Source of the DNA: Leucobacter exalbidus
GTDB lineage: Bacteria; Actinomycetota; Actinomycetes; Actinomycetales; Microbacteriaceae
Length of the DNA stretch: 64,000 nucleotides
NCBI RefSeq assembly: GCF_017834145.1
Contig: NZ_JAFIDA010000001.1
Span: forward strand, 930,001 to 994,000
Direction: 5' to 3'
Shown one piece after another: positions 42,046-61,055 of this stretch (position 1 is the stretch's first letter; each line of letters opens with the position of its first letter). A model generated the notes under the pieces. The model was not told the DNA's origin, searched no databases, and saw only the letters and a list, made by a program, of their open reading frames with translations. The position numbers and the translations under genes are program-made.

Positions 42046-44417
<2,372 letters not shown>

Positions 44418-44492: not shown

Positions 44493-46118
44493 CTACTTCT
44501 TTACGACCAGCTGCTCCTGCTTGATCTCTGCTTCATCGAGCGAGGCGAACTGTTCGTTCAGGCTCTTGCCTTCGCTCGTGCGGAACTCGCTCTTGAACTT
44601 CTCGATCTGAGTCGTGAGCTCTGCCACGGTCTCGTCAGAGAGAAGGTTCGTCTCGCGCAGCGTGGTGAGCGCCTGCGAGTTGCGAGCCAGGTAATCCAAG
44701 AACTCGCGCTCGAAGCGGAGGATGTCCTCCACGGGCACGTCGTCCATGAAGCCCTTGGTGCCAGCCCAGATCGAAACGGTCTGGTCCTCAACGGGGAACG
44801 GTGAGTACTGGCCCTGCTTGAGCAGCTCGGTGAGGCGTGCGCCACGCTCAAGCTGCTTACGGCTGGAAGCATCAAGGTCAGAAGCGAACATCGCGAAGGC
44901 CTCAAGCGCGCGGTACTGTGCGAGCTCAAGCTTCAAGGTGCCCGATACCTTCTTGATCGACTTCACCTGAGCGTCGCCGCCCACGCGTGAAACCGAGATA
45001 CCCACGTCGACCGCGGGGCGCTGGTTAGCGTTGAAGAGGTCGGACTGCAAGAAGATCTGGCCGTCGGTGATCGAGATCACGTTGGTCGGAATGTACGCCG
45101 AGACGTCGTTTGCCTTGGTCTCGATGATGGGCAGGCCCGTCATCGAACCTGCGCCGAGCTCGTCGGACAGCTTTGCACAACGCTCGAGCAGACGCGAGTG
45201 CAGGTAGAAGACGTCACCGGGGTAAGCCTCGCGCCCCGGCGGGCGACGCAGCAGCAGTGATACTGCACGGTAGGCCTCAGCCTGCTTCGAGAGATCATCA
45301 AAGATGATGAGTACGTGCTTGCCGTCGTACATCCAGTGCTGGCCAATGGCCGAACCGGTGTACGGTGCGAGGTACTTGAAGCCTGCGGGATCAGATGCGG
45401 GAGACGCCACGATCGTGGTGTACTCCATTGCACCGGCTTCCTCGAGCGCGCCCTTTACCGAAGCAATGGTCGAGCCCTTCTGGCCGATAGCGACGTAGAT
45501 GCAACGAACCTGCTTCTGCTTGTCGCCTGAAGCCCAGTTGGCCTTCTGGTTGATGATCGTGTCGATCGCAAGAGCCGTCTTACCGGTCTGGCGGTCACCA
45601 ATGATCAGCTGACGCTGGCCACGGCCCACGGGGATCATCGCGTCGATAGCCTTGATGCCGGTCTGCAGCGGTTCGTGAACCGACTTACGCTGCATCACGC
45701 CGGGAGCCTGCAGCTCGAGTGCACGACGGCCCTCGATGCCACTGATCTCGCCGAGACCATCAATGGGCTTGCCGAGCGGGTCAACCACGCGGCCGAGGTA
45801 GCCCTCGCCCACGGGAACGGAGAGAACCTCTCCGGTGCGCGTGACCTGCTGGCCCTCCTCGATGCCGGTGAATTCACCGAGCACGACGACGCCAATAACG
45901 TCTTCGTCGAGGTTCTGAGCGAGTCCGAGAGTTCCATCCGCGAAGCGGATGAGCTCGTTCGCCATGACGCCGGGGAGTCCCGCGACGTGTGCGATGCCGT
46001 CTGCGGCGTCAACTACCGTTCCGACCTCGGTCTTATCTGCCTGGGCCGGCTCGTACGACGCTGCAAAGTCATTCAGCGCGCTACGAATCTCGTCCGGGCT
46101 GATTGAGAGTTCTGCCAT
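44493..46118 (-). CDS. atpA: ATP synthase F1 subunit alpha
   Basis: 541 residues, with the non-catalytic nucleotide site. P-loop [18 protein letters not shown] (about 171-188), [38 protein letters not shown], and the arginine finger region [18 protein letters not shown]. The C-terminus has about 30 extra residues after the family core ([20 protein letters not shown]), common in actinobacteria. Confidence 0.98.
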
Positions 46119-50489: not shown

Positions 50490-51155
50490 TTAGTCCTCGA
50501 TGGTCACCTGCGGCAGGGCTTCGGCCAGATCTTCGCGGGTGACACCTCCCTCGCGCAAAATACGCAGGCTGCCGCCTTCTTCGGTGAGCGCGGTGGCGTC
50601 AATAATGGTCGAGGCTTCGGGCTCGTCGGCGTTCGCCCCGTTTTCGAGGTACACCGAAACCGAGTCTTCAAGCATGGCCTGAGCCTCGGCGGCGGTGCGC
50701 GCGGGCGGCTCCCCCGTCTTGTTCGCAGACGACACCGCGAGCGGGCCGGTCTCCTGGAGCAGCTCAAGGGTGAGCGGCTGGTTGGGGATGCGCAGGGCGA
50801 CGGTGCCGCCGGTCTCCCCCAGATCCCAGCTGAGTGCCGGGTTGGCCCGGGTGATGATGGTGAGCGCACCGGGCCAGAACGTTTCGGCGAGGGTGCGCAG
50901 CGGCGCCGTAACCTCGGCGGCTAGCGCGTCAAGGGTGGCGACATTGGGGATCAGCACGGGCGGCGGCGACTGGCGCGTGCGGCCCTTTGCGTCGAGCAGG
51001 CGCTGCACCGCTTCTGCGGTAAACGCGTCTGCGGCCACACCGTACACGGTGTCTGTGGGGATCACCGCGAGCTGCCCACTGCCAATCGCTCGCCTTGCGG
51101 CGCGCATTGCCGAAATGAGCTGGGTGGTGTCGCTGCAATCAAATACCTCTGCCAT
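50490..51155 (-). CDS. Threonylcarbamoyl-AMP synthase (YrdC/Sua5 family)
   Basis: 221 residues. Makes threonylcarbamoyl-AMP for the t6A37 modification of tRNAs. YrdC domain: LAVIPTDTVYGVAADAF (about 28-44), KGRTRQSPPPVLI, FWPGALTIITR, VALRIPNQPLTLELL and LAVSSANKTGEPPA. ATG 51155 gives the usual family N-terminus and lies 11 bases after prmC; a start at 51248 would overlap prmC by 82 bases. Confidence 0.92.
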   Translation of the reverse strand: MAEVFDCSDTTQLISAMRAARRAIGSGQLAVIPTDTVYGVAADAFTAEAVQRLLDAKGRTRQSPPPVLIPNVATLDALAAEVTAPLRTLAETFWPGALTIITRANPALSWDLGETGGTVALRIPNQPLTLELLQETGPLAVSSANKTGEPPARTAAEAQAMLEDSVSVYLENGANADEPEASTIIDATALTEEGGSLRILREGGVTREDLAEALPQVTIED

Positions 51156-51166
51156 AGCGCCCCAGC

Positions 51167-52096
51167 TTACTCGGCTTGGCCAGGGAGTCTCGCCGAAGTC
51201 GCCCGATCGCGGCCCGTGAGGTCGACGTGGGTGTGCGTTTGCTGCCACCCGTCGCGTGCGAGCAGCCCGCGAATCGCGGCCCCCTGCTCTTCGGTGTGCT
51301 CGAGCACAATGAGCCCACCGGGCGCGAGTAGCCGGCGCCCGGCACGGCTCAAGATCCTGATGGCGTCGAGCCCATCGCTGCCACTGTAGAGCGCGAGATC
51401 GGGGTCGTGTTCGCGCACCTCGGGGTCGACGGGAATCTCACTGGCCGGCACGTATGGCGGGTTCGACGCGAGCACTGCGAAGCGCTCCAAAAGCGGCGTG
51501 ATTGCGCGGTCGATCTCGCCTGCGGGCTGTTGAGTTCCTTGATCCGGATCATCGAGCTCAGCGATATCGCCCAGCAGCAGCGTGACCCGGTGATCGCCCC
51601 AGTCGGCCACGTTTTGTGCGGCCCAGGAGTAGGCAGTTTCGTCTTTTTCGACGGCCCAGATGCGCGCGGTGGGCACCTCGTGCGCCATCGCGAGGGCGAG
51701 GGCTCCGCTGCCCGTGCAGAGATCGAGCGCGAGCGGATCGGGCTTAAGCGCGAGTTCATCGATCGCGATTTGCGCGATTAATTCAGTTTCGGGCCGCGGC
51801 ACAAACACGCCGGGGCCGACCTTCAGCTCAAGGGTGCGAAACGGTGCGAGGCCGGTGAGGTGCTGCAGCGGCACGCGCTCGGCACGGCGTTGTCCCAGCG
51901 CTTCGAACTGCGCGTGCTGCGCTTCGGTGAACGTGCGTCCCATGATGGCGAGGGCTTGCACCCGGCCGCGTGATTCGCCCAGCACGTGGCCGGCGAGCAG
52001 CTCGGCATCGACCATCGGGGTGTCGATGCCGGCCGCGGCGAGGGTGTCAGCGAGCTGGCGCAGCTGCTGCTGCAGCGCGCGAGAGTGAGAAGCCAT
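51167..52096 (-). CDS. prmC: Release factor glutamine methyltransferase
   Basis: 309 residues. Methylates the GGQ glutamine of release factors. N-terminal helical domain (about 1-75) and SAM domain with LDLCTGSGALALAMAHEVP (about 124-142), VFVPRPETELIAQI, and the catalytic FAVLASNPPYVPASEIP. It normally directly follows prfA; here 4.5 kb intervene. Confidence 0.95.
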   Translation of the reverse strand: MASHSRALQQQLRQLADTLAAAGIDTPMVDAELLAGHVLGESRGRVQALAIMGRTFTEAQHAQFEALGQRRAERVPLQHLTGLAPFRTLELKVGPGVFVPRPETELIAQIAIDELALKPDPLALDLCTGSGALALAMAHEVPTARIWAVEKDETAYSWAAQNVADWGDHRVTLLLGDIAELDDPDQGTQQPAGEIDRAITPLLERFAVLASNPPYVPASEIPVDPEVREHDPDLALYSGSDGLDAIRILSRAGRRLLAPGGLIVLEHTEEQGAAIRGLLARDGWQQTHTHVDLTGRDRATSARLPGQAE

Positions 52097-52609: not shown

Positions 52610-52690
52610 GTATCATGCGTAGAGTCACTTTCGGCGCACTGACGGGCCTCGTCACTGTTGACCCGCTGGCGAGAACTGGAGGCGATATCT

Positions 52691-53299
52691 ATGCCACGCC
52701 TTGAAGCGGCAACGGTGGCCGAGCATCGCGCAAACCAAGAGCGCCTGCTGCTCGATGTCGCTCATTCCATGCTGCAGCGCACGGGGGCCGTGCCCGGCAT
52801 GGGCGCCGTGGCCGCCGGGGCTGGGCTCGCCCGCTCGAGCATCTACCAATACTTTGATTCTCGCGAGGCGCTGCTCAATGCCCTCGTGGAAGATATCTTT
52901 CCCAAGTGGGCCGAGCGCGTGACCGGGGCGATGGCTGCCGCACCCAACGCGGGCGCCCGCATACTGGCGTATGCGCTTGCCAATCTTGAACTTGTAGCCG
53001 AGGGCGCCCACGCGGTCGGGTCTGCGCTGGCCACACTGTCCCCCGGCGACGCCGTGAATGAGCAGGCCGCGCGCATGCACCGCCAGATCCAAGAGCCCCT
53101 CACCCAGGCCCTCATTGAACTGCGCGTGGCTGACCCCGAGGGCGTGGGTGAGCTCATCAACGCCATGGTGCACGCCTCGACACTGCGGCTCGAAGCTGGC
53201 CAGCCACCCGCTCAGGTGCGCGAGAACCTCACGGCAGTTATTGCCCCGATGGCGCAGCAGCTGCAAGAGCAACACAGCGGCCAGGATCCCCTCACATAG
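52691..53299 (+). CDS. TetR family transcriptional regulator
   Basis: 202 residues. The N-terminal helix-turn-helix contains ERLLLDVAHSMLQRTGAVPG (about 17-36) and AGAGLARSSIYQYFDSREAL. ATG 52691 follows GGAGG with an eight-base spacer; a start at 52658 is less likely. The effector domain is Ala-rich and unassigned. It may control itself and the divergent membrane protein; cysK begins 116 bases downstream with its own promoter. Confidence 0.88.
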   Translation: MPRLEAATVAEHRANQERLLLDVAHSMLQRTGAVPGMGAVAAGAGLARSSIYQYFDSREALLNALVEDIFPKWAERVTGAMAAAPNAGARILAYALANLELVAEGAHAVGSALATLSPGDAVNEQAARMHRQIQEPLTQALIELRVADPEGVGELINAMVHASTLRLEAGQPPAQVRENLTAVIAPMAQQLQEQHSGQDPLT

Positions 53300-53311
53300 A
53301 TCGGCGAGGTT

Positions 53312-53332
53312 CGCCCGACGCGTAATCGGGCG
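53312..53332 (+). terminator. Hairpin after the TetR gene
   Basis: CGCCCGA-cgcgtaa-TCGGGCG, seven-base arms beginning 12 bases after the stop. No T-run. Confidence 0.45.
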
Positions 53333-53348
53333 ACTTAGGCTATAAGTG

Positions 53349-53365
53349 ATCGGAAACACTCCGAT
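53349..53365. promoter_or_regulatory. Inverted repeat over the cysK -35 region
   Basis: ATCGGA-aacac-TCCGAT, perfect six-base arms, 11 bases upstream of the -10 element. Its position suggests a repressor site for a sulfur or cysteine regulator. Confidence 0.5.
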
Positions 53366-53375
53366 AAGGTGGAGC

Positions 53376-53381
53376 TATAGT
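53376..53381 (+). promoter_or_regulatory. cysK -10 element
   Basis: TATAGT, about 35 bases before the cysK start, giving a short leader with a GGAGG ribosome-binding site. Confidence 0.5.
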
Positions 53382-53415
53382 TTAGCGTCGCACTCAACCG
53401 CAGGAGGATGCACCC

Positions 53416-54351
53416 ATGGCACGGATTTACGACAACATTACCCAGGCTTTCGGCAAAACGCCGCTCGTTCGCCTCAACCGCGTCACCGACGGCGCCGTTG
53501 CCGAGGTATACGCGAAGCTCGAGTTCTACAACCCCGCAGGCTCGGTGAAGGATCGCATCGGTATCGCGATCATCGACGCCGCAGAAGCCTCAGGCGCATT
53601 GAAGCCCGGTGGCACCATCGTTGAGGGCACGAGCGGCAACACCGGCATCGCCCTCGCCTTTGTTGGCGCAGCGCGCGGCTACCGCGTCGTACTCACGATG
53701 CCCGAGACGATGAGCATCGAGCGTCGCAAGATGCTGAAGGCGTACGGCGCCGAGATCGTACTCACCCCCGGCGCAGCCGGCATGCGTGGCGCAGTCGAGA
53801 AGGCTCAGGAGATCGTTGACTCAACCCCCGGCGCCATTCTCGCCAACCAGTTCGGCAACGCAGCCAACCCCGCCGTGCACTACGCCACCACGGGCCCCGA
53901 GATCTGGGCCGACACTGAGGGCAGCGTTGACATTTTCGTTTCGGGCATCGGCACCGGCGGCACCATCACGGGCGCCGGCAGCTACCTGAAGGAGCAGAAC
54001 GCTGCAGTGCAGGTCGTTGCGGTTGAGCCCAAGGACTCCCCGCTGCTCACCGGCGGCAACGCAGGCCCGCACAAGATCCAGGGCCTCGGCGCAAACTTTG
54101 TGCCCGAGGTGCTCAACACCGAGCTGTACGACGAGGTCGTTGACGTTGAGCTCGAAGACTCGCTGCGTCTGGCACGCGAGCTCGCGACCCGCGAGGGAAT
54201 CCTCGTGGGCATTTCGGGTGGCGCCGCCGTATCTGCCGCACTCGAGGTCGCCAAGCGCGCCGAGAACGCGGGCAAGAAGATCGTCGTCGTGATCCCCGAT
54301 TCGGGCGAGCGCTACTTCTCGACCGTACTGTTTGCAGACCTCGAGGTCTAA
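53416..54351 (+). CDS. cysK: Cysteine synthase A (O-acetylserine thiol-lyase)
   Basis: Joins sulfide and O-acetylserine to make cysteine. 311 residues, PLP fold-type [12 protein letters not shown] at the start, [16 protein letters not shown] with the PLP Lys (about residue 43), [20 protein letters not shown] (substrate loop), [20 protein letters not shown] binding PLP phosphate, and [20 protein letters not shown] near the end. GGAGG precedes ATG 53416. With cysE it forms a cysteine biosynthesis pair. Confidence 0.97.
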
Positions 54352-54360
54352 CACGCCGTG

Positions 54361-54397
54361 ACGCGGGGGTCGGGCATAGGCTGCCCGGCCCCCGCGT
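54361..54397 (+). terminator. Hairpin between cysK and cysE
   Basis: 16-base arms (54361-54376, 54382-54397) with one G-U type mismatch and a five-base loop, seven bases after the cysK stop. The tail TGTCGTG has no T-run; partial readthrough into cysE is plausible. Confidence 0.6.
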
Positions 54398-54470
54398 TGT
54401 CGTGACCACGGTCAGAACACCCACTCCACACCCCAGTGGTTCCCCAGATCTCAGAATGAAGCGAGGCAGC

Positions 54471-55040
54471 GTGAGCATCCTGTCGAGAATCCGTGAAGAC
54501 GTGCAGTCGGCGCGCTCCCATGACCCCGCGGCGCGCGGCGCCCTCGAAGTCGCCGTGGTGTATTCGGGGTTACACGCAGTCTGGTGGCACCGGGTGGCAC
54601 ACACGCTGTGGTCACGGGGTGCCCGCTTTCTTCCGCGCCTGATTTCACAGGCCACACGCTTCGCCACCGGCATCGAGATTCACCCGGGCGCCACCATTGG
54701 CCGCAGGTTGTTCATCGATCACGGCATGGGGGTCGTCATTGGCGAGACCGCCATCATCGGCGATGACGTGCTCATCTACCACGGCGTCACGCTCGGCGGC
54801 ACCGGCCATGGCCGCGGCAAGCGCCACCCCACCCTGGGCAACCGCGTGGTGGTGGGCGCCGGCGCAAAGTTGCTCGGCGCCATCGAGCTCGGCGATGACT
54901 GCGCCGTCGGCTCAAACGCCGTCGTGGTGCGCTCGGCCCCCGCGTGGTCGACCCTCACCGGTATACCGGCGCAGGCTCGGCCGAGGCGTGGAGCGCCCCG
55001 GGCCGAACAGCCCGACATGGCCGACTTCTACGTCATCTAA
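54471..55040 (+). CDS. cysE: Serine O-acetyltransferase
   Basis: Acetylates serine for cysteine synthesis. 189 residues from GTG 54471, chosen because GAGG lies just upstream and the [20 protein letters not shown] start matches actinobacterial CysE; in-frame starts at 54402 and 54456 are possible. Short form with the hexapeptide left-handed beta helix ([60 protein letters not shown]). The C-terminus ends in DFYVI, the kind of Ile-ended tail that inserts into CysK to form the cysteine synthase complex. Convergent with the MFS gene, four-base overlap. Confidence 0.95.
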
Positions 55041-56422
55041 CGCAGCCGGCGCCCGCGCTCGGCCATCCAGCGCTGCGTGCGGCGCCGCTCGATCAGCACC
55101 ATCGTGATCCCGAGCACCCACAGCGGCACCTGCACCGCGAACGCCCACTTAAAGGCCGTAAGCGAGTAGGCATCGGGTGATCCGGCGCCTTGTACGTCAA
55201 GCACCAGCCCGATCAACAAGATCACAATCAGCGAGGCAATGAAGCCGCCCGTGTTGACGAGCCCCGTCGCGAACCCGGCGAAGCTGCGCGGTGAGTGCGA
55301 CCGCAGCACCTCGAACGCGATCATCGAGGCCGGGCCGCCCAGCGGCATCACGATAATCAGCGCGAGCAGCAGCCACAGCGGCGGCGGGCCGGGCCACAGG
55401 AACACCGTGCCCCACACGATCGCGATCGCGAGGGTAATGCCCACGTTGATCCACACGCGGCGCTCGACGAACCGCGAGCTCAGCGGGCCGAGCACGAGGC
55501 CGGCCACCATCGATGACACCACCGTGATGCTCAGCAGCGCCCCCGATTGTGAGGCAGACAGACCCACCCCGCCCGTCAAGAACGGGGTGCCCCAGATCAG
55601 CAGGAACACGTTCGCCGCGAAGGGTGAGGTGAAGTGCAGCCAGAATGCGAGCCTGATGCCCGGGATGCGCAGCATGCGGCGGGCGCGATCGATTACCTCG
55701 AATCCGCGGTGGGAATCAACCAGCGGAATGGTGGAGGTTTGGGGCGGCCCAATCGACGAGGTGACGGCCTCAGGCTCCCCCGCCAGCGAGCGCGCGTTGA
55801 GGGTGAGTTTGCCGCGGCGCCCCGTGATCTGCTCGACGAGCGTGGGGGCGCCTGGGCGATCCCGCATCACGAACGCACCCAAAATGGTGACGAGCAGGCC
55901 GACGGCCGCGAGGCCCAAGAAGCCCTGGGTCCAGCCGACCGCGCCCACGAGCAGCGCCAGCGGGGTCACTGAGACCAGCTGTCCGGCTTGGCCGATCAGC
56001 CCCGTAACCTGGCTCACCGTGGGCAGCTGCCGCACCGCGAACCACTCGGGGAGCATACGCATCACGCTAATAAACGTGCACGCGTCACCCGCGCCCACCA
56101 GCACGCGGGCTAGCACCGCAAGCCACACATTATCGACCGTCGCCATTGCGGTCTGGCCGATCAGCATCAGCACGCCGCCGCCCAGCACCATGTTCGTGGT
56201 GCCCACCTTGTCGAGCAAAATACCCACGGGGATCTGCAGGGCGGCATAGACCACCAGCTGGATCACGGGGAACGCCGCGAGGGTCGTTGCGTCGATGTCG
56301 AAGTGGTGTTGGGTGGCTGGGCCGAGGGCGGCGAGTGAGGAGCGATTAATCACTGCCACTGCATACGCGATGGCGGCCACACCCCAAACAAACCAAGGGA
56401 GCAGTGGGCGTGCTGTGCGCAT
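55037..56422 (-). CDS. MFS transporter, nitrate/sugar-phosphate-like branch
   Basis: 461 residues with about 12 membrane helices ([20 protein letters not shown] in helix 1, then [20 protein letters not shown]). A cytoplasmic loop of about 60 residues in the middle is polar (residues about 190-250). No substrate can be assigned. It lies beside cysE but on the other strand; an exporter of cysteine-related compounds is one guess without direct support. The 222-base gap upstream is GC-rich with a 12-base direct repeat and the prfA terminator. Confidence 0.85.
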
Positions 56423-56644: not shown

Positions 56645-57718
56645 TTACTCGCCCAGGTTTGCCAGGCGCTCTTCTTCGTCAGCGCGAATGCACGAGTCGA
56701 TGACTGCGTCGAGCGCACCGTCCATCACGTGATCAAGGTTGTATGCCTTGAATCCCGTGCGGTGATCTGCGATGCGGTTCTCGGGGAAGTTGTACGTGCG
56801 AATGCGCTCGGAGCGATCCATCGTGCGGATCTGGCTCGAGCGGTACGCACTTGCCTCAGCGGCGGCTTCCTCTTGCTTGCGCGCCAGCAGTCGTGCACGC
56901 AGCACGCGCATACCCGCGTCGCGGTTCTGCAGCTGGCTCTTCTCGTTCTGCATCGCCACGACAATGCCCGTGGGAATGTGCGTGATGCGCACGGCCGAGT
57001 CGGTCGTGTTCACCGACTGGCCGCCGGGGCCGCTCGAACGGTAGACGTCGATCTTGAGATCGTTCTGGCTGATCTCAACCTCTTCAGGGGCGTCAACCTC
57101 GGGGTACACGAGCACGCCCGTGGTGGAGGTGTGAATGCGTCCCTGTGACTCGGTCACGGGCACACGCTGCACGCGGTGCACGCCACCCTCGTACTTCAGG
57201 TGCGCCCAGGCGCCCTGCGACGGATCGGCAGCGTTGGCCTTGATCGCGACCTGCACGTTCTTGTAGCCGCCCAGATCGCTCTCGTCTTTCTCGAGGATCT
57301 CGGTCTTCCAACCCTTGGACTCTGCATAGTGCATGTACATGCGCAGCAGATCGGCGCCGAACAGCGCCGATTCTGCGCCGCCCTCGCCACCCTTGATCTC
57401 AAGGATGACATCGCGTGCGTCGTCGGGGTCGCGCGGAATCAGCAGACGCCGCACCTTCTCCTGAGCCTCAGCGAGCCCGGTTTCAAGAGCGGGGATCTCT
57501 TCAGCGAAGGCGTCATCTTCGCGTGCAAGCTCGCGTGCGGCCTCAAGGTCTGCACCCTGCTGCTGCCACTGCTCGTACGCAGCCTTAATCTTGGACAACT
57601 CGGCGTAGCGCCGGTTGACCTTCTTTGCACGTGCCGCATCGGCGTGCAACGCCGGATCTGCAAGCGTCTCCTGCAGTGCGAGGTGCTCAGCGAGCAGTGT
57701 CTCGACCTGTTCGAACAT
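56645..57718 (-). CDS. prfA: Peptide chain release factor 1
   Basis: 357 residues. Recognises UAA and UAG and triggers peptide release. The helical N-terminal domain (about 1-100), the recognition domain and the catalytic [20 protein letters not shown] loop with GGQ at about residue 230 are intact, as is the ending [19 protein letters not shown]. In the same direction as rho and 50 bases after it. prmC, its modifying enzyme, lies 4.5 kb further downstream, after an unrelated block. Confidence 0.97.
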
Positions 57719-57768
57719 GTTTCCTCCGAGAATGTGTTCTGTGTAAGTGACCGTGAAGCGTGTAAACG

Positions 57769-59904
57769 CTAGGCCGCGGAGGTGGTCTGCAGAACTGCAG
57801 CGCCACGCGTGTGCGAGCGCTCAGCAACTACGGTGACCGCAGCGGGAGCGGTGGCTGCGAAACGAATTTCGCAGTTCGCCACGGGGCGCAGGTCGCGCAG
57901 CAGCTGCTTGTCAGCAGCAAAACCAGTCTTTGCAGCGGCGGTGGCGAGCACCGTCACCGATCCGCCGTTTTCAACGTTGCGGGCCGCGCCAAGCACGCGA
58001 CGCACCTGAGCGGTCGCAAACTCGTCGACGGCTCCGTTTGCGGGCCGCGATGAGACGGGCTGTGCCTGGGCGTAAGCCCGAGCCAGGTCGCCTACCGAGT
58101 CGATCAGCACGACGACGTCGTGGCCGAGCTCAGCGAGACGCTTTGCGCGCTCGATACCCAGCTCAGCGATCGTGGCCTGGTCTTCTGCCGTGCGCTCGAA
58201 CGATGCGGCGATGACCTCACCGTTGACGGTGCGCGTCAGGTGGGTGATGTCTTCGGGCTGTGCGTTGGTGAGCAGCAGCATCAGGTGTGCATCGGGAGCG
58301 TTCTGGCTCACCGAAGCGGCGAGCTGGCTCAGCACCTCGATGCCGCGTGCGGGCTGGGGCACCACGAGCAGGCCACGCTGGCCGAAGCCCACGGGAGCTG
58401 CAGCGTCAATCTCGCTGCCAATGCCTGCGCCGGTCGAGAGCGGCAGCTGGCGTACGGGGTAGATGGCTGAGAGCTCAGAGAACTCAGCGCGCTGCTCGTT
58501 CTCTTCGATCGCGCGACCGTTGATCGAGTCAACCTTCACAATGGCGTTGTACTTCTGACGCCCGGCCTGATCGCCTTCGCGGGGCTGACGAATAGCGCCA
58601 ACGACTGCGTCGCCGCGCTTCAGACCGTACTTCTTGACCTGACCGAGCGAGACGTACACGTCGCTCGTGCCGGGCAGGTAACCGCTCGTGCGCACAAACG
58701 CGTAGTTGTCGAGCACGTCGAGGATGCCCGCGATGGGCAGCAGGACATCATCTTCGGTGATCTCGGGATCGATATCGTCACCCTGGCCGCGACGCTTACG
58801 GTCACGCTGGCGGGTGCGGCTCGAACGGCTTTCGGCGTTCTTGTCGTTGTGGCGGTTCGACTCGGGGCCGTTCTGGCTCTCACCGGTCTTCTGGCCACGC
58901 TGGTTCTTGTTCGCCTGAGCCTGGTTCTGGTTCTGGTTCTGAGCCTGGTTCTGGTTCTGGTTCTGAGCCTGACCCTGGTTCTGAGCCGCGCCCTGAGCCT
59001 GGTTCTGGCCCTGGGTCTTGGTCTCAGCAGCTGCAGCCTCGGGCTGCGCAGCCTCTGCGGTCTCAGCAGTTTCAGGCCTCTGGCCACGGCGGCCACGGGT
59101 GCGACCGCGGGTGGGGCGCTCGCCCTCAGCCTGGTCAGCGTTGGTCTTGTCGGCGTCAGCCTGCTCGGCCGACGTGGCCTCAGCAGCCTGATCAGCGGCG
59201 GGCGTTTCGCTCGACTCGCTGGCGACCGGCTGCGACGCTGCGGTCTCAGCGGGCGCTGCGGTCTCGGCCTCGGGGGTCTCGGCGATGGGCTCAGCAGCCT
59301 TCGCTGCCTTGCTGACCCGTGCACGACGCGTGCGCTTCACGGGAGCCTCAGCTGCAGCAGTTTCATCTGCGGCGGCCTCAACGGGGGCCTCAGCCGCAGC
59401 CTCGGGGGCGGCTTCGGCAGCGGGTGCTTCAGCAGCGGGAGGCTCGACGGCTTCAGCAGCAGGAGCCTCAACGGGCTTCTTACGAGCACGCGTTACGCGC
59501 TTCTTCGGCGCCTCAACAGCAGCCTCAGCGGCAGGTGACTCAGCAGCAGGTGCTGCGGTCTCCGCAGCGGCCTTGGGAGCTGCAGCCGATGATTCAGCAG
59601 CGGCGGGTGCCTCAGCAGCAGCCTCAGCCGTGACCGGCTTCTTACGAGCACGCGTCACGCGCTTCTTCGGCGCTTCAACAGCAGCGGGCGCTGCGTCAGC
59701 GGCGGGGGCCTCAGCGGCAACCGCTGCGGCCGGAGCAGCAACGGCCGCAGCAGCCGGCGCCACGACGGTGACGGGCGCAACGGCCTCACCGGCGGGGGCC
59801 GTCACGCGACGCGATGCGCGCTTACGCACGGGTTTCTCAGCAGCAACCGCGGCAGTTGCGTCGCCACCGACGCTGGCCTGGGGCTCAATTACATTGTCTT
59901 CCAC
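57769..59904 (-). CDS. rho: Rho-like transcription termination factor with degenerate, truncated ATPase domain
   Basis: 711 residues from GTG 59904 (GAGAGG upstream). Residues 1-384 are a disordered extension: Ala/Glu/Pro-rich with repeated [11 protein letters not shown] blocks, then a Gln/Asn-rich and a basic part. Residues about 385-475 are an intact Rho cold-shock RNA-binding domain ([40 protein letters not shown]). The ATPase that follows aligns with Rho without gaps at first, but the P-loop PPKAGKT is replaced by PQPARGI (516-522), the catalytic-Glu segment DERPEE by TNAQPED, TRLARAY by GDLARAY, and the R-loop by RPVAN. About 100 C-terminal residues, including the arginine-finger region, are missing. 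ATP-driven translocation is therefore not expected. A second, complete rho elsewhere is possible. Confidence 0.9.
58918..58965 (-). repeat. 24-base tandem repeat in the Q/N-rich part of rho
   Basis: Two exact copies of AGCCTG plus three GTTCTG (plus-strand reading; 58918-58941 and 58942-58965), with degenerate copies on both sides. In the protein they give runs of QNQNQNQA. The copy number could change by slippage. Confidence 0.85.
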
Positions 59905-60074
59905 AGTGTTTTCCTCTCGGAATGTCGCGGGGGCGCACGCAAGGCGCATCACCCTCCCACGAACTTGCACTCAAGTGCATTCGGGATCGCCGGGCATGCG
60001 CCTCGGCAAGGGAACGATCCAACCTCCACAGCCGCGAATACACCGTGCACCGACAAGGCGGTGGCGACGGAACG

Positions 60075-61055
60075 CTACTGGGAAACTCGCGAAGAAATCG
60101 CGGGGATCGGCTCCACTGTAGCACCCTTCGTATCGACCGCAAGCGTCAGAACGCGCCAATCAGGGTGATGCTCAGCCACGAAATCTGCGGCGGCCAAGCG
60201 CTCCTGCGGCCCGTTCGACATCACGAGCACCGACGGCCCGGCACCCGACACCACGGCCGGGTAGCCGCGCTCGCGCAGCTCAGCGATCAGGTCGCGCGTG
60301 CCCGGCATCGCTGCACCGCGATAGTTCTGGTGCAGGCGATCCTCAGTCGATTCAAACAACAGCTCGGGGCTCTGCGTGAGCGCCGCAATGAGCAGCGCCG
60401 AACGCGACACGTTAAACACTGCGTCCTCGTGCGGCACCTGCTCAGGCTGCAGGCTGCGCGCGAGTTCCGTCGACATCGTGAAGCTGGGCACGAGCACGAG
60501 CGGCGCGACACCGCGGTGCACCATCAACTTTTTGAACTTCGGCCCCTCGGGCGTGGTCCACGCAATCGTGAGCCCGCCAAACAGCGCGGGAGCCACGTTG
60601 TCGGGGTGCCCCTCAAGCGCGGTGGCGAACCCGAGCAGCTGAGCTTCGGTGAGCGACAGAGGCGATTCCGGATCACTCTCGAGTAGCCCCGCCGCAATCA
60701 TGATGCCCGCGACGATCGCCGAGCCCGATGAGCCCATGCCGCGGCCGTGCGGAATGCGGTTGTGTGCCTCGAGCGTCAGCCCGGGCAGTTCGCGGCCGAG
60801 CTGCTCATACACGTAGGCCGCCGAGCGCACCACGAGATTCGAGGCGTCAGTGGGCACTTCGCCCTCGCCGACACCCGTGACGTGCACGGTAGCGCCAGAT
60901 TCTGCTCGGGTCGTGGCGGTGAGGTCGTCACCGTAGGCGAGCGCAATGCCCAGAGTGTCAAACCCTGGCCCCAGGTTTGCGCTCGTCGCCGGCACGCGCA
61001 CGCGCACCGAGCGTGCGGCGTAAGTCGTCTGTGGTGCGTCAGCATTCATGCTCAT
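60075..61055 (-). CDS. thrB: Homoserine kinase
   Basis: Phosphorylates homoserine for threonine synthesis. 326-residue GHMP kinase: VRVRVPATSANLGPGFDTLG at the N-terminus, ATP loop NRIPHGRGMGSSGSAIVAGI (about 105-124), and VVSGAGPSVLVMS near the end. ATG overlaps the hom stop as ATGA. The 170-base gap to rho holds a small TGCACT-ca-AGTGCA inverted repeat near 59970 and no other clear signal. Confidence 0.96.
   Translation of the reverse strand: MSMNADAPQTTYAARSVRVRVPATSANLGPGFDTLGIALAYGDDLTATTRAESGATVHVTGVGEGEVPTDASNLVVRSAAYVYEQLGRELPGLTLEAHNRIPHGRGMGSSGSAIVAGIMIAAGLLESDPESPLSLTEAQLLGFATALEGHPDNVAPALFGGLTIAWTTPEGPKFKKLMVHRGVAPLVLVPSFTMSTELARSLQPEQVPHEDAVFNVSRSALLIAALTQSPELLFESTEDRLHQNYRGAAMPGTRDLIAELRERGYPAVVSGAGPSVLVMSNGPQERLAAADFVAEHHPDWRVLTLAVDTKGATVEPIPAISSRVSQ

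Follow-up and report, generated by a model that had tools for sequence, protein, structure and literature searches.

Described Rho factors that come closest to the protein discussed here, the Rho protein encoded in a window of 64,000 nucleotides from Leucobacter exalbidus (assembly GCF_017834145.1, contig NZ_JAFIDA010000001.1, positions 930,001 to 994,000), are those of Mycobacterium tuberculosis (PDB 7oqh) and Escherichia coli (1pv4, 6xas, 6xav). The former is the best structural and sequence match and shares with the window protein the cold-shock domain, a long insertion region towards the N-terminus and the RecA domain. M. tuberculosis Rho is an actinobacterial Rho with a weak motor and is still active with a threonine at the position of the R-loop lysine (PMC8828861). 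In E. coli Rho, the replacement E211A abolishes hydrolysis and leaves ATP binding and oligomerisation unaffected (PMC4499133). Catalytic residues are described as highly conserved in divergent Rho factors (PMC8828861), and the choice between translocation and allosteric models of Rho termination is a live dispute (PMC8964686). Rho-less Bacilli (PMC13323073) and cyanobacteria (PMC13289151) are lineages that live without a Rho motor.

The Leucobacter protein differs from each of these. Unlike in the Rho-less Bacilli and cyanobacteria, where the gene is gone, the gene has been kept in Leucobacter, with an intact RNA-binding part. Unlike M. tuberculosis Rho, the window protein is without the P-loop lysine, the catalytic glutamate and an arginine-finger region that can be aligned with confidence. 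With E. coli Rho it shares homology over residues 53-348 and identity at the primary RNA-site residues F64, R66, D78, Y80, R102 and Y110, but K181, K184, T185, E211, R212 and K326 are replaced and the C-terminal end is missing. Because PMC8828861 calls the catalytic residues of Rho highly conserved, the Leucobacter protein is an exception. The explanation that we favour, at somewhat better than even chances, is that the motor of Rho died in the ancestor of most Leucobacter species and that the protein has been kept since as a pseudo-ATPase that acts passively on nascent RNA or elongation complexes.

Residues lost and kept in the Rho protein of L. exalbidus

Alignment of the window protein with Rho of E. 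coli, M. tuberculosis and relatives (numbering as in E. coli Rho, residue roles in part from PMC8828861 and PMC4499133) gave the substitutions K181P, G183R, K184G, T185I, E211A, R212Q and R269D, with D265 retained. A preliminary description of this DNA, made from its letters and open reading frames, had reported that the Walker A lysine and threonine are gone, that the segment of the catalytic glutamate reads TNAQPED and that the Q- and R-loops do not match. The alignment bears this out, K184 being a glycine, T185 an isoleucine and K326 an alanine, and both loop regions being substituted; the Walker A remnant PQPARGI ends at 58359, however, and not at 58362 as given there. With Pfam, the ATPase domain scored 25.7 bits, below the cut-off of 29.5, and the match to TIGR00767 (rho) fell short of the equivalog score (297 bits versus a cut-off of 509), covering profile positions 44-343 of 415. 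A shortened C-terminus had been noted as well, correctly, though about 70 profile positions are unmatched and not the hundred or so residues estimated. Beyond the R366 column the window protein has 11 residues, compared to 58-83 in the loci L010-L039 and L097-L099; the column itself holds an arginine, in a shortened tail that aligns without confidence. A search at the DNA level that reads through stops extended the Rho match to profile position 385, some ten codons past the TAG, and the gap before prfA (57739-57771) may thus retain a little Rho-like sequence.

The primary RNA site, in contrast to the motor, is intact. The textbook Rho RNA-binding domain described before was recovered far above the Pfam cut-off (Table 1). 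We compared 13 primary RNA-contact columns across 52 Leucobacter loci, i.e. the window and 51 further rho loci, some with frames that end at contig ends, and found that 11 of these columns (58, 61, 62, 64, 66, 78, 80, 88, 102, 109 and 110) hold a single residue in all 52. The invariant residues are also the commonest ones in 33 canonical relatives, except at column 110 (there Phe in 22 and Tyr in 11), and variation was confined to columns 100 (Ala 47, Ser 4, Val 1) and 108 (Glu 27, Asp 25). The Arg-rich segment just before the domain has been kept too, with R385, 387, 389, 391, 393, 394 and G395 close to invariant (at least 90%) among 20 diverse proteins. The N-terminal region, whose median length of 354 residues in 51 of the 52 Leucobacter loci is an upper bound, contains Gln/Asn-rich repeats in the window, and Ala/Lys-rich repeats lie farther upstream.

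A model made with AlphaFold2 from 37 sequences had a mean pLDDT of 82.6, with values of 82-97 in the ten-residue blocks between residues 111 and 330 of 340, and all 50 PDB matches listed by Foldseek were Rho chains, the first being that of M. tuberculosis. Since this match had a TM score of 0.63 and an rmsd of about 12, the orientation of the domains in the model is not settled; the ATPase domain itself is predicted to retain a RecA-type fold. The window protein has the features of a pseudoenzyme, as judged from alignment and model: the catalytic residues are lost, the fold is predicted to be kept, and the gene is under purifying selection and stably retained (see below). By position and sequence it is a Rho orthologue, and since the defining motor features fail we class it as a putative pseudo-ATPase variant rather than a working Rho. 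It is very probable that the motor is dead and that the protein is kept for RNA binding; it would neither hydrolyse ATP nor translocate, and most likely still binds RNA.

Copy number, spread and age of the motor loss

The preliminary description had considered that the protein might antagonise a second Rho, which could be sought in the complete genome by its intact GKT P-loop. No such second rho was found in the complete 3.18-Mb genome, which encodes one Rho RNA-binding domain only (two other strong ATPase-family matches in the window correspond to the F1 alpha and probably the F1 beta subunits), and no second, intact Rho was found in 54 genomes of the genus. Exactly one such domain was found in 52 of these 54, i.e. 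in the genome of L. exalbidus and in 51 others, which gives the antagonist role no support; the remaining two are 72% and 76% complete, and the domain was present in 45 of 45 genus genomes with at least 90% completeness and at most 5% contamination.

The rho frame is open in all 52 Leucobacter loci over the length present, yet at least one of six core residues is altered at the same locus in 50 of them, and we could divide the loci into near-intact (2), intermediate (12) and dead (38). K184 is lost in the last group (Gly in 25, Ala in 11, Ser in 2), where several RecA core motifs persist (GQR, A-Q-P-E-E, GEV-AA-FDR, HDVVVL-DS and AARN-ENGGS). The 14 loci that keep K184 also keep E211 and R212, but T185 has become Ser in 12, and K181 is kept in only two and K326 in three. 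The two K181-keeping species retain all six core residues, and have a histidine in the arginine-finger column. The C-terminus is short in 10 of the 52, most others retaining a diverged tail, and the model score falls in a graded fashion across the genus. Outside the genus, 29 of the 30 best-scoring loci (L010-L039, which the search had selected because they score high) have KKTERDRRR at nine motor positions, the remaining one having a Lys at 269.

Related genomes with an intact ATPase at the same locus would have pointed to an isolated recent decay or an assembly error, and within the genus only those two of 52 loci keep the six core residues. Recent decay was rejected, as K184 is lost at the same locus across related genomes. 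A sequencing or assembly error, for which no supporting evidence was found, has a negligible probability and is ruled out by the related genomes: 37 other genome records have lost the lysine at this locus, and the closest relative protein, that of L. salsicius M1-8, is 87% identical over 339 residues. A working but unorthodox ATPase, with other residues in place of the Walker A lysine and the catalytic glutamate, could account for the persistence of the HDVVVLxDS strand and of D265 (kept in 37 of the 38 rows without K184). Those rows are highly variable at positions 181 and 183, however, the catalytic glutamate is replaced in all of them (Ala in 37, Thr in one), the R-loop lysine is lost, and M. 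tuberculosis Rho requires a hydrolysis-competent site (PMC4499133), so that we regard this explanation as highly improbable.

In a tree of thrA, thrB and prfA (53 rows, 1103 columns, covering 47 of the 52 Leucobacter loci and 36 of the 38 K184-lost ones), the 36 K184-lost species form one clade (SH-aLRT 99) and the K184-keepers branch below it, with deeper forks at 81-88; two changes of the K184 state are needed on this tree, in which lineages outside the genus sit on long branches and 9 of the 50 inner branches are open. A PrfA tree of 103 rows required at least 10 such changes and is poorly resolved, with 32 of 99 inner branches open. Both trees were built from genes linked to rho, so that linked transfer may have affected them. 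Since the 36 motor-dead species form one clade, the loss of the motor is old. Most likely, judging from these alignments and trees, the P-loop lysine and the catalytic glutamate were lost once in a Leucobacter ancestor and the gene was retained through the radiation that followed. The dismantling appears to have been stepwise, because K184-keepers are already altered at positions 181 and 185 and in the R-loop. Two loci with another genus label (L106 and L107, genus code g81) fell inside Leucobacter on the PrfA tree; their Rho is of the intermediate type (RKSERD).

Selection was estimated by a simple Nei-Gojobori count for 77 close pairs of K184-lost Leucobacter, picked by prfA divergence and not mutually independent. 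The median dN/dS was 0.077 for the RNA domain, 0.211 (0.018-0.631) for the ATPase domain and 0.484 for the tail, versus 0.067 for prfA and 0.129 for thrB. Between the window and L. salsicius (L069), dN and dS were 0.006 and 0.38 for the RNA domain, 0.080 and 0.80 for the ATPase domain and 0.072 and 0.99 for the tail, and 0.040 and 0.65 for prfA and 0.071 and 0.69 for thrB; for this pair dN/dS of the ATPase domain is about 0.10, similar to that of thrB. Purifying selection acts on the dead ATPase domain, though over the clade as a whole it is weaker there than on the neighbouring genes. This bears on the possibility that the gene is a relic in slow decay, which lingers in the operon between thrB and prfA and drifts towards loss. 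The raised dN/dS of the ATPase domain and the tail in the 77 pairs, the ten short C-termini and the graded loss of model score would all suit such a relic. We nevertheless consider it improbable, in view of the open frames in all 52 loci, the conserved RNA site, the retention of the RNA domain in every good genome, the value for the window and L. salsicius, and the single old loss, after which the clade diversified into no fewer than 36 sampled species. This one basal loss, the open frames and purifying selection on both domains support the first proposal, an old pseudo-ATPase that is kept.

Termination, NusG and the possible roles of a Rho protein without a motor

The favoured explanation supposes that the motor-dead protein binds C-rich nascent RNA via its cold-shock domain and the basic N-terminal region, and that it would hold or trap the transcript or the elongation complex without extracting the RNA. 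Said et al. (2021) reportedly described a translocation-independent inactivation of RNA polymerase by Rho, for a Rho that possesses a motor. By analogy, action on the elongation complex before translocation may still be possible for a motor-dead Rho, although the Rho in that work has its motor and the contact between Leucobacter Rho and RNA polymerase is putative. A passive factor that binds RNA fits best among the roles proposed in the preliminary description, with the motor residues lost and the RNA site conserved; for a passive role at the elongation complex in particular we see the chances as evenly balanced. The further step, that the whole clade runs Rho-type control without a motor, with binding to RNA and the elongation complex inactivating or marking polymerases without ATP-driven translocation, is rather unlikely.

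The main rival, to which we give a substantial but minority chance, is that the protein has been repurposed outside termination (e.g. as an RNA chaperone, a shield or a condensate former), with the RecA fold as a mere scaffold and Rho-dependent termination given up. The intact cold-shock domain and the long, basic, partly Gln/Asn-rich N-terminal region would suit such a role. It would explain why the RNA site is conserved in all 52 loci and the motor erased in 38, and why the N-terminal region is kept in 51 of 52. The distribution of Rho_N could be read in the same way, as this domain was present in 10 of 10 canonical proteins versus 1 of 20 in a set of 18 eroded or intermediate proteins and two canonical small-genome ones (profile coordinates, with a match from position 4, suggest that the single positive is L092). 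However, because the Rho match of the two canonical small-genome relatives also begins at profile position 44-46, Rho_N was probably lost independently of the death of the motor.

If termination had been given up, intrinsic terminators might have compensated. In ten genomes (about 200 kb each, our own gene caller, hairpin plus U-tract), terminator-like sites were found at 7 of 144 tail-to-tail ends in four eroded genomes (G000 4/34, G016 0/46, G166 0/30, G187 3/34) versus 30 of 232 in five canonical ones (G059 5/48, G069 7/48, G063 14/42, G066 4/44, G120 0/50), and at 0/46 in the intermediate G010. For co-directional gaps of 60 or more these numbers were 16 of 159 (2/41, 1/39, 6/40 and 7/39, genomes in the same order) versus 14 of 191 (1/47, 5/45, 6/23, 2/25 and 0/51), with 0/43 in G010; divergent gaps, taken as a control, had 0-2 sites per genome. 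Folding-energy excess at gene ends overlapped between the eroded and canonical groups. A consistent rise of intrinsic terminators was thus not found in the four eroded genomes compared to the five canonical ones, which speaks against the repurposing outside termination. In Rho-less Bacilli the purine bias of the coding strand is lost (PMC13323073). A relaxation of this bias was not seen in the sampled genomes (eroded 0.494-0.515, intermediate 0.4995, canonical 0.488-0.508), and the test is uninformative because the sampled canonical relatives are without the bias. Taken as weak evidence, the terminator and purine tests give no support to termination having been given up.

NusG was compared in 40 genomes, using a KOW consensus from 10 canonical rows, which score high by construction (44-51 of 51 consensus positions); 12 NusG stretches end where the match ends and thereby lose one or two positions. 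The domain is largely intact in 14 Leucobacter genomes (43-46), and reached 42 each in g15 and g18 and 43-47 in g57, g60 and g81. In g97, all six genomes read have a remodelled KOW domain (28-31, with 69-78 of 82 positions for NGN), and in g6 the domain scored 31 in one of five genomes and 39-42 in the other four. The remodelling in g97 would favour a role outside termination, whereas the KOW domains of Leucobacter, and of g15 and g18 with their eroded Rho, are not eroded and argue against it. Co-erosion of NusG was rejected as a general rule, since it is seen in g97 (6/6) and in one of five g6 genomes and not in g15, g18 or Leucobacter. In g97 (L135, L338-L342), a small-genome lineage with an eroded and shortened Rho, the new KOW sequence is conserved within the lineage.

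Several observations weigh against a motor-dead Rho that still acts at RNA or elongation complexes. Part of the motor-dead protein is relaxed, because dN/dS of the ATPase domain and the tail exceeds that of prfA and thrB, and the control with working Rho is small, consisting of one canonical pair, in which Rho is identical, and four pairs of K184-keeping Leucobacter (0.077 for the ATPase domain). The secondary RNA site has been altered, and most of the RNA-binding part was modelled with lower confidence (blocks of 53-76). The KOW domain of NusG also serves translation coupling, so that its integrity does not prove a link to Rho. The terminator survey, finally, is small and based on rough gene calls.

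The rho locus and related lineages

The gene order thrB-rho-prfA on one strand is that of the usual rho locus, in agreement with the earlier placement of the gene and with orthology by position. The span first assigned to it (57769-58800) covers only the folded C-terminal half of the open reading frame (Table 1). Relatives have a conserved Val-Glu-x-Asn close to the N-terminus, which points to the GTG near 59904 as the true start. Among 123 loci (a set in which two entries duplicate the window's own locus and L003 is no Rho locus), prfA was present in 110, both duplicates included, and thrB in 108, always on the same strand as rho, the remaining loci being mostly cut short. The order prfA-prmC-sua5 is a common one. 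It is interrupted in the window, because four genes (a TetR-like regulator, cysK, a cysE-like gene and an MFS transporter, at 52658-56422) lie between prfA and prmC-like and sua5-like genes (50490-52096), all named by reading.

Table 1. Positions of rho, its parts and other genes in the window
Feature	Position	Strand	Evidence
rho, only copy in the genome, predicted to be motor-dead	57769..59970	minus	733 aa counted from first GTG; Pfam and TIGR00767
Gln/Asn-rich repeats in N-terminal region	58915..58995	minus	tandem repeats of 24 and 18 bases and translation
Arg-rich segment just before RNA-binding domain, kept	58786..58818	minus	20-protein alignment
Rho RNA-binding domain (primary RNA site), intact	58507..58731 (genome 988507-988731)	minus	PF07497, 85 bits (cut-off 27), 2.5e-24
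Walker A remnant PQPARGI (K181P, G183R, K184G, T185I)	58339..58359	minus	alignment with Rho of E. coli and relatives
Segment of catalytic Glu and Arg valve, reading TNAQPED (E211A, R212Q)	58249..58269	minus	alignment
Walker B strand HDVVVLIDS, D265 kept	58096..58122	minus	alignment
Q-loop region, substituted	58024..58062	minus	alignment
R-loop region, substituted, K326 = Ala	57916..57930	minus	alignment
C-terminal end, shortened (approximate upper bound; no confident alignment of the arginine-finger region)	57772..57860	minus	TIGR00767 stops at 343/415
prfA (peptide chain release factor 1), directly downstream of rho, usual neighbour	56645..57718	minus
thrB, directly upstream of rho, usual neighbour	60075..61055	minus
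F1 alpha open reading frame	44988-45659		strong ATPase-family match
F1 beta (by inference)	42418-43059		strong ATPase-family match

In the Microbacteriaceae, the family of Leucobacter, Rho scored above the cut-off in 343 of 398 genomes. Among the low-scoring ones, eroded motors were found in all six loci read of g97 (more exist) and all five read of g6. In single loci, K184 has become Arg and E211 Ile in g15, K184 has become Arg in g57, and the P-loop lysine is kept in g18 with E211 and the tail lost; partial motor changes also occur in g60, g81, g20 and g103. An otherwise well-kept Rho with a single central loss was seen in g13 (E211 to Ala in 2/2, L094 and L108) and g16 (K184 to Thr in 1/2, L103). 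The low scores of G161, G199, G143, G244 and G363 were rejected as cases of erosion and dropped, as contig ends truncate these genes, and family genomes that matched very weakly or not at all (among them G137, G197, G254, G280, G384, G386, G393 and G482) were left out of the reading. Across the phylum, 113 of 128 genomes that are at least 95% complete scored above the cut-off and eight had no match at 1e-40, with low scores in f44, f47 and f56. In other families of the Actinomycetota, the Rho-like matches of G522, G535, G573, G589 and G610 (144-428 bits) may represent further independent erosions or losses, as may the eight matchless genomes.

We found no published description of a motor-dead Rho in Leucobacter or Microbacteriaceae in the open-licence literature. 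A rho gene in a genome no longer implies Rho-dependent termination, and other Microbacteriaceae repeat the erosion of the motor, one lineage with a remodelled KOW domain in NusG. The loss of the motor would predict inherent resistance of these Leucobacter species to bicyclomycin, following the logic in PMC4499133. With a clade whose sole Rho is not expected from its sequence to hydrolyse ATP and whose RNA site is frozen, the dispute between translocation and allosteric models could be tested in wild-type cells. Should motorless control prove true, Leucobacter would be a natural proof that the Rho translocase is dispensable, and the intermediate species would show stages of its partial dismantling.

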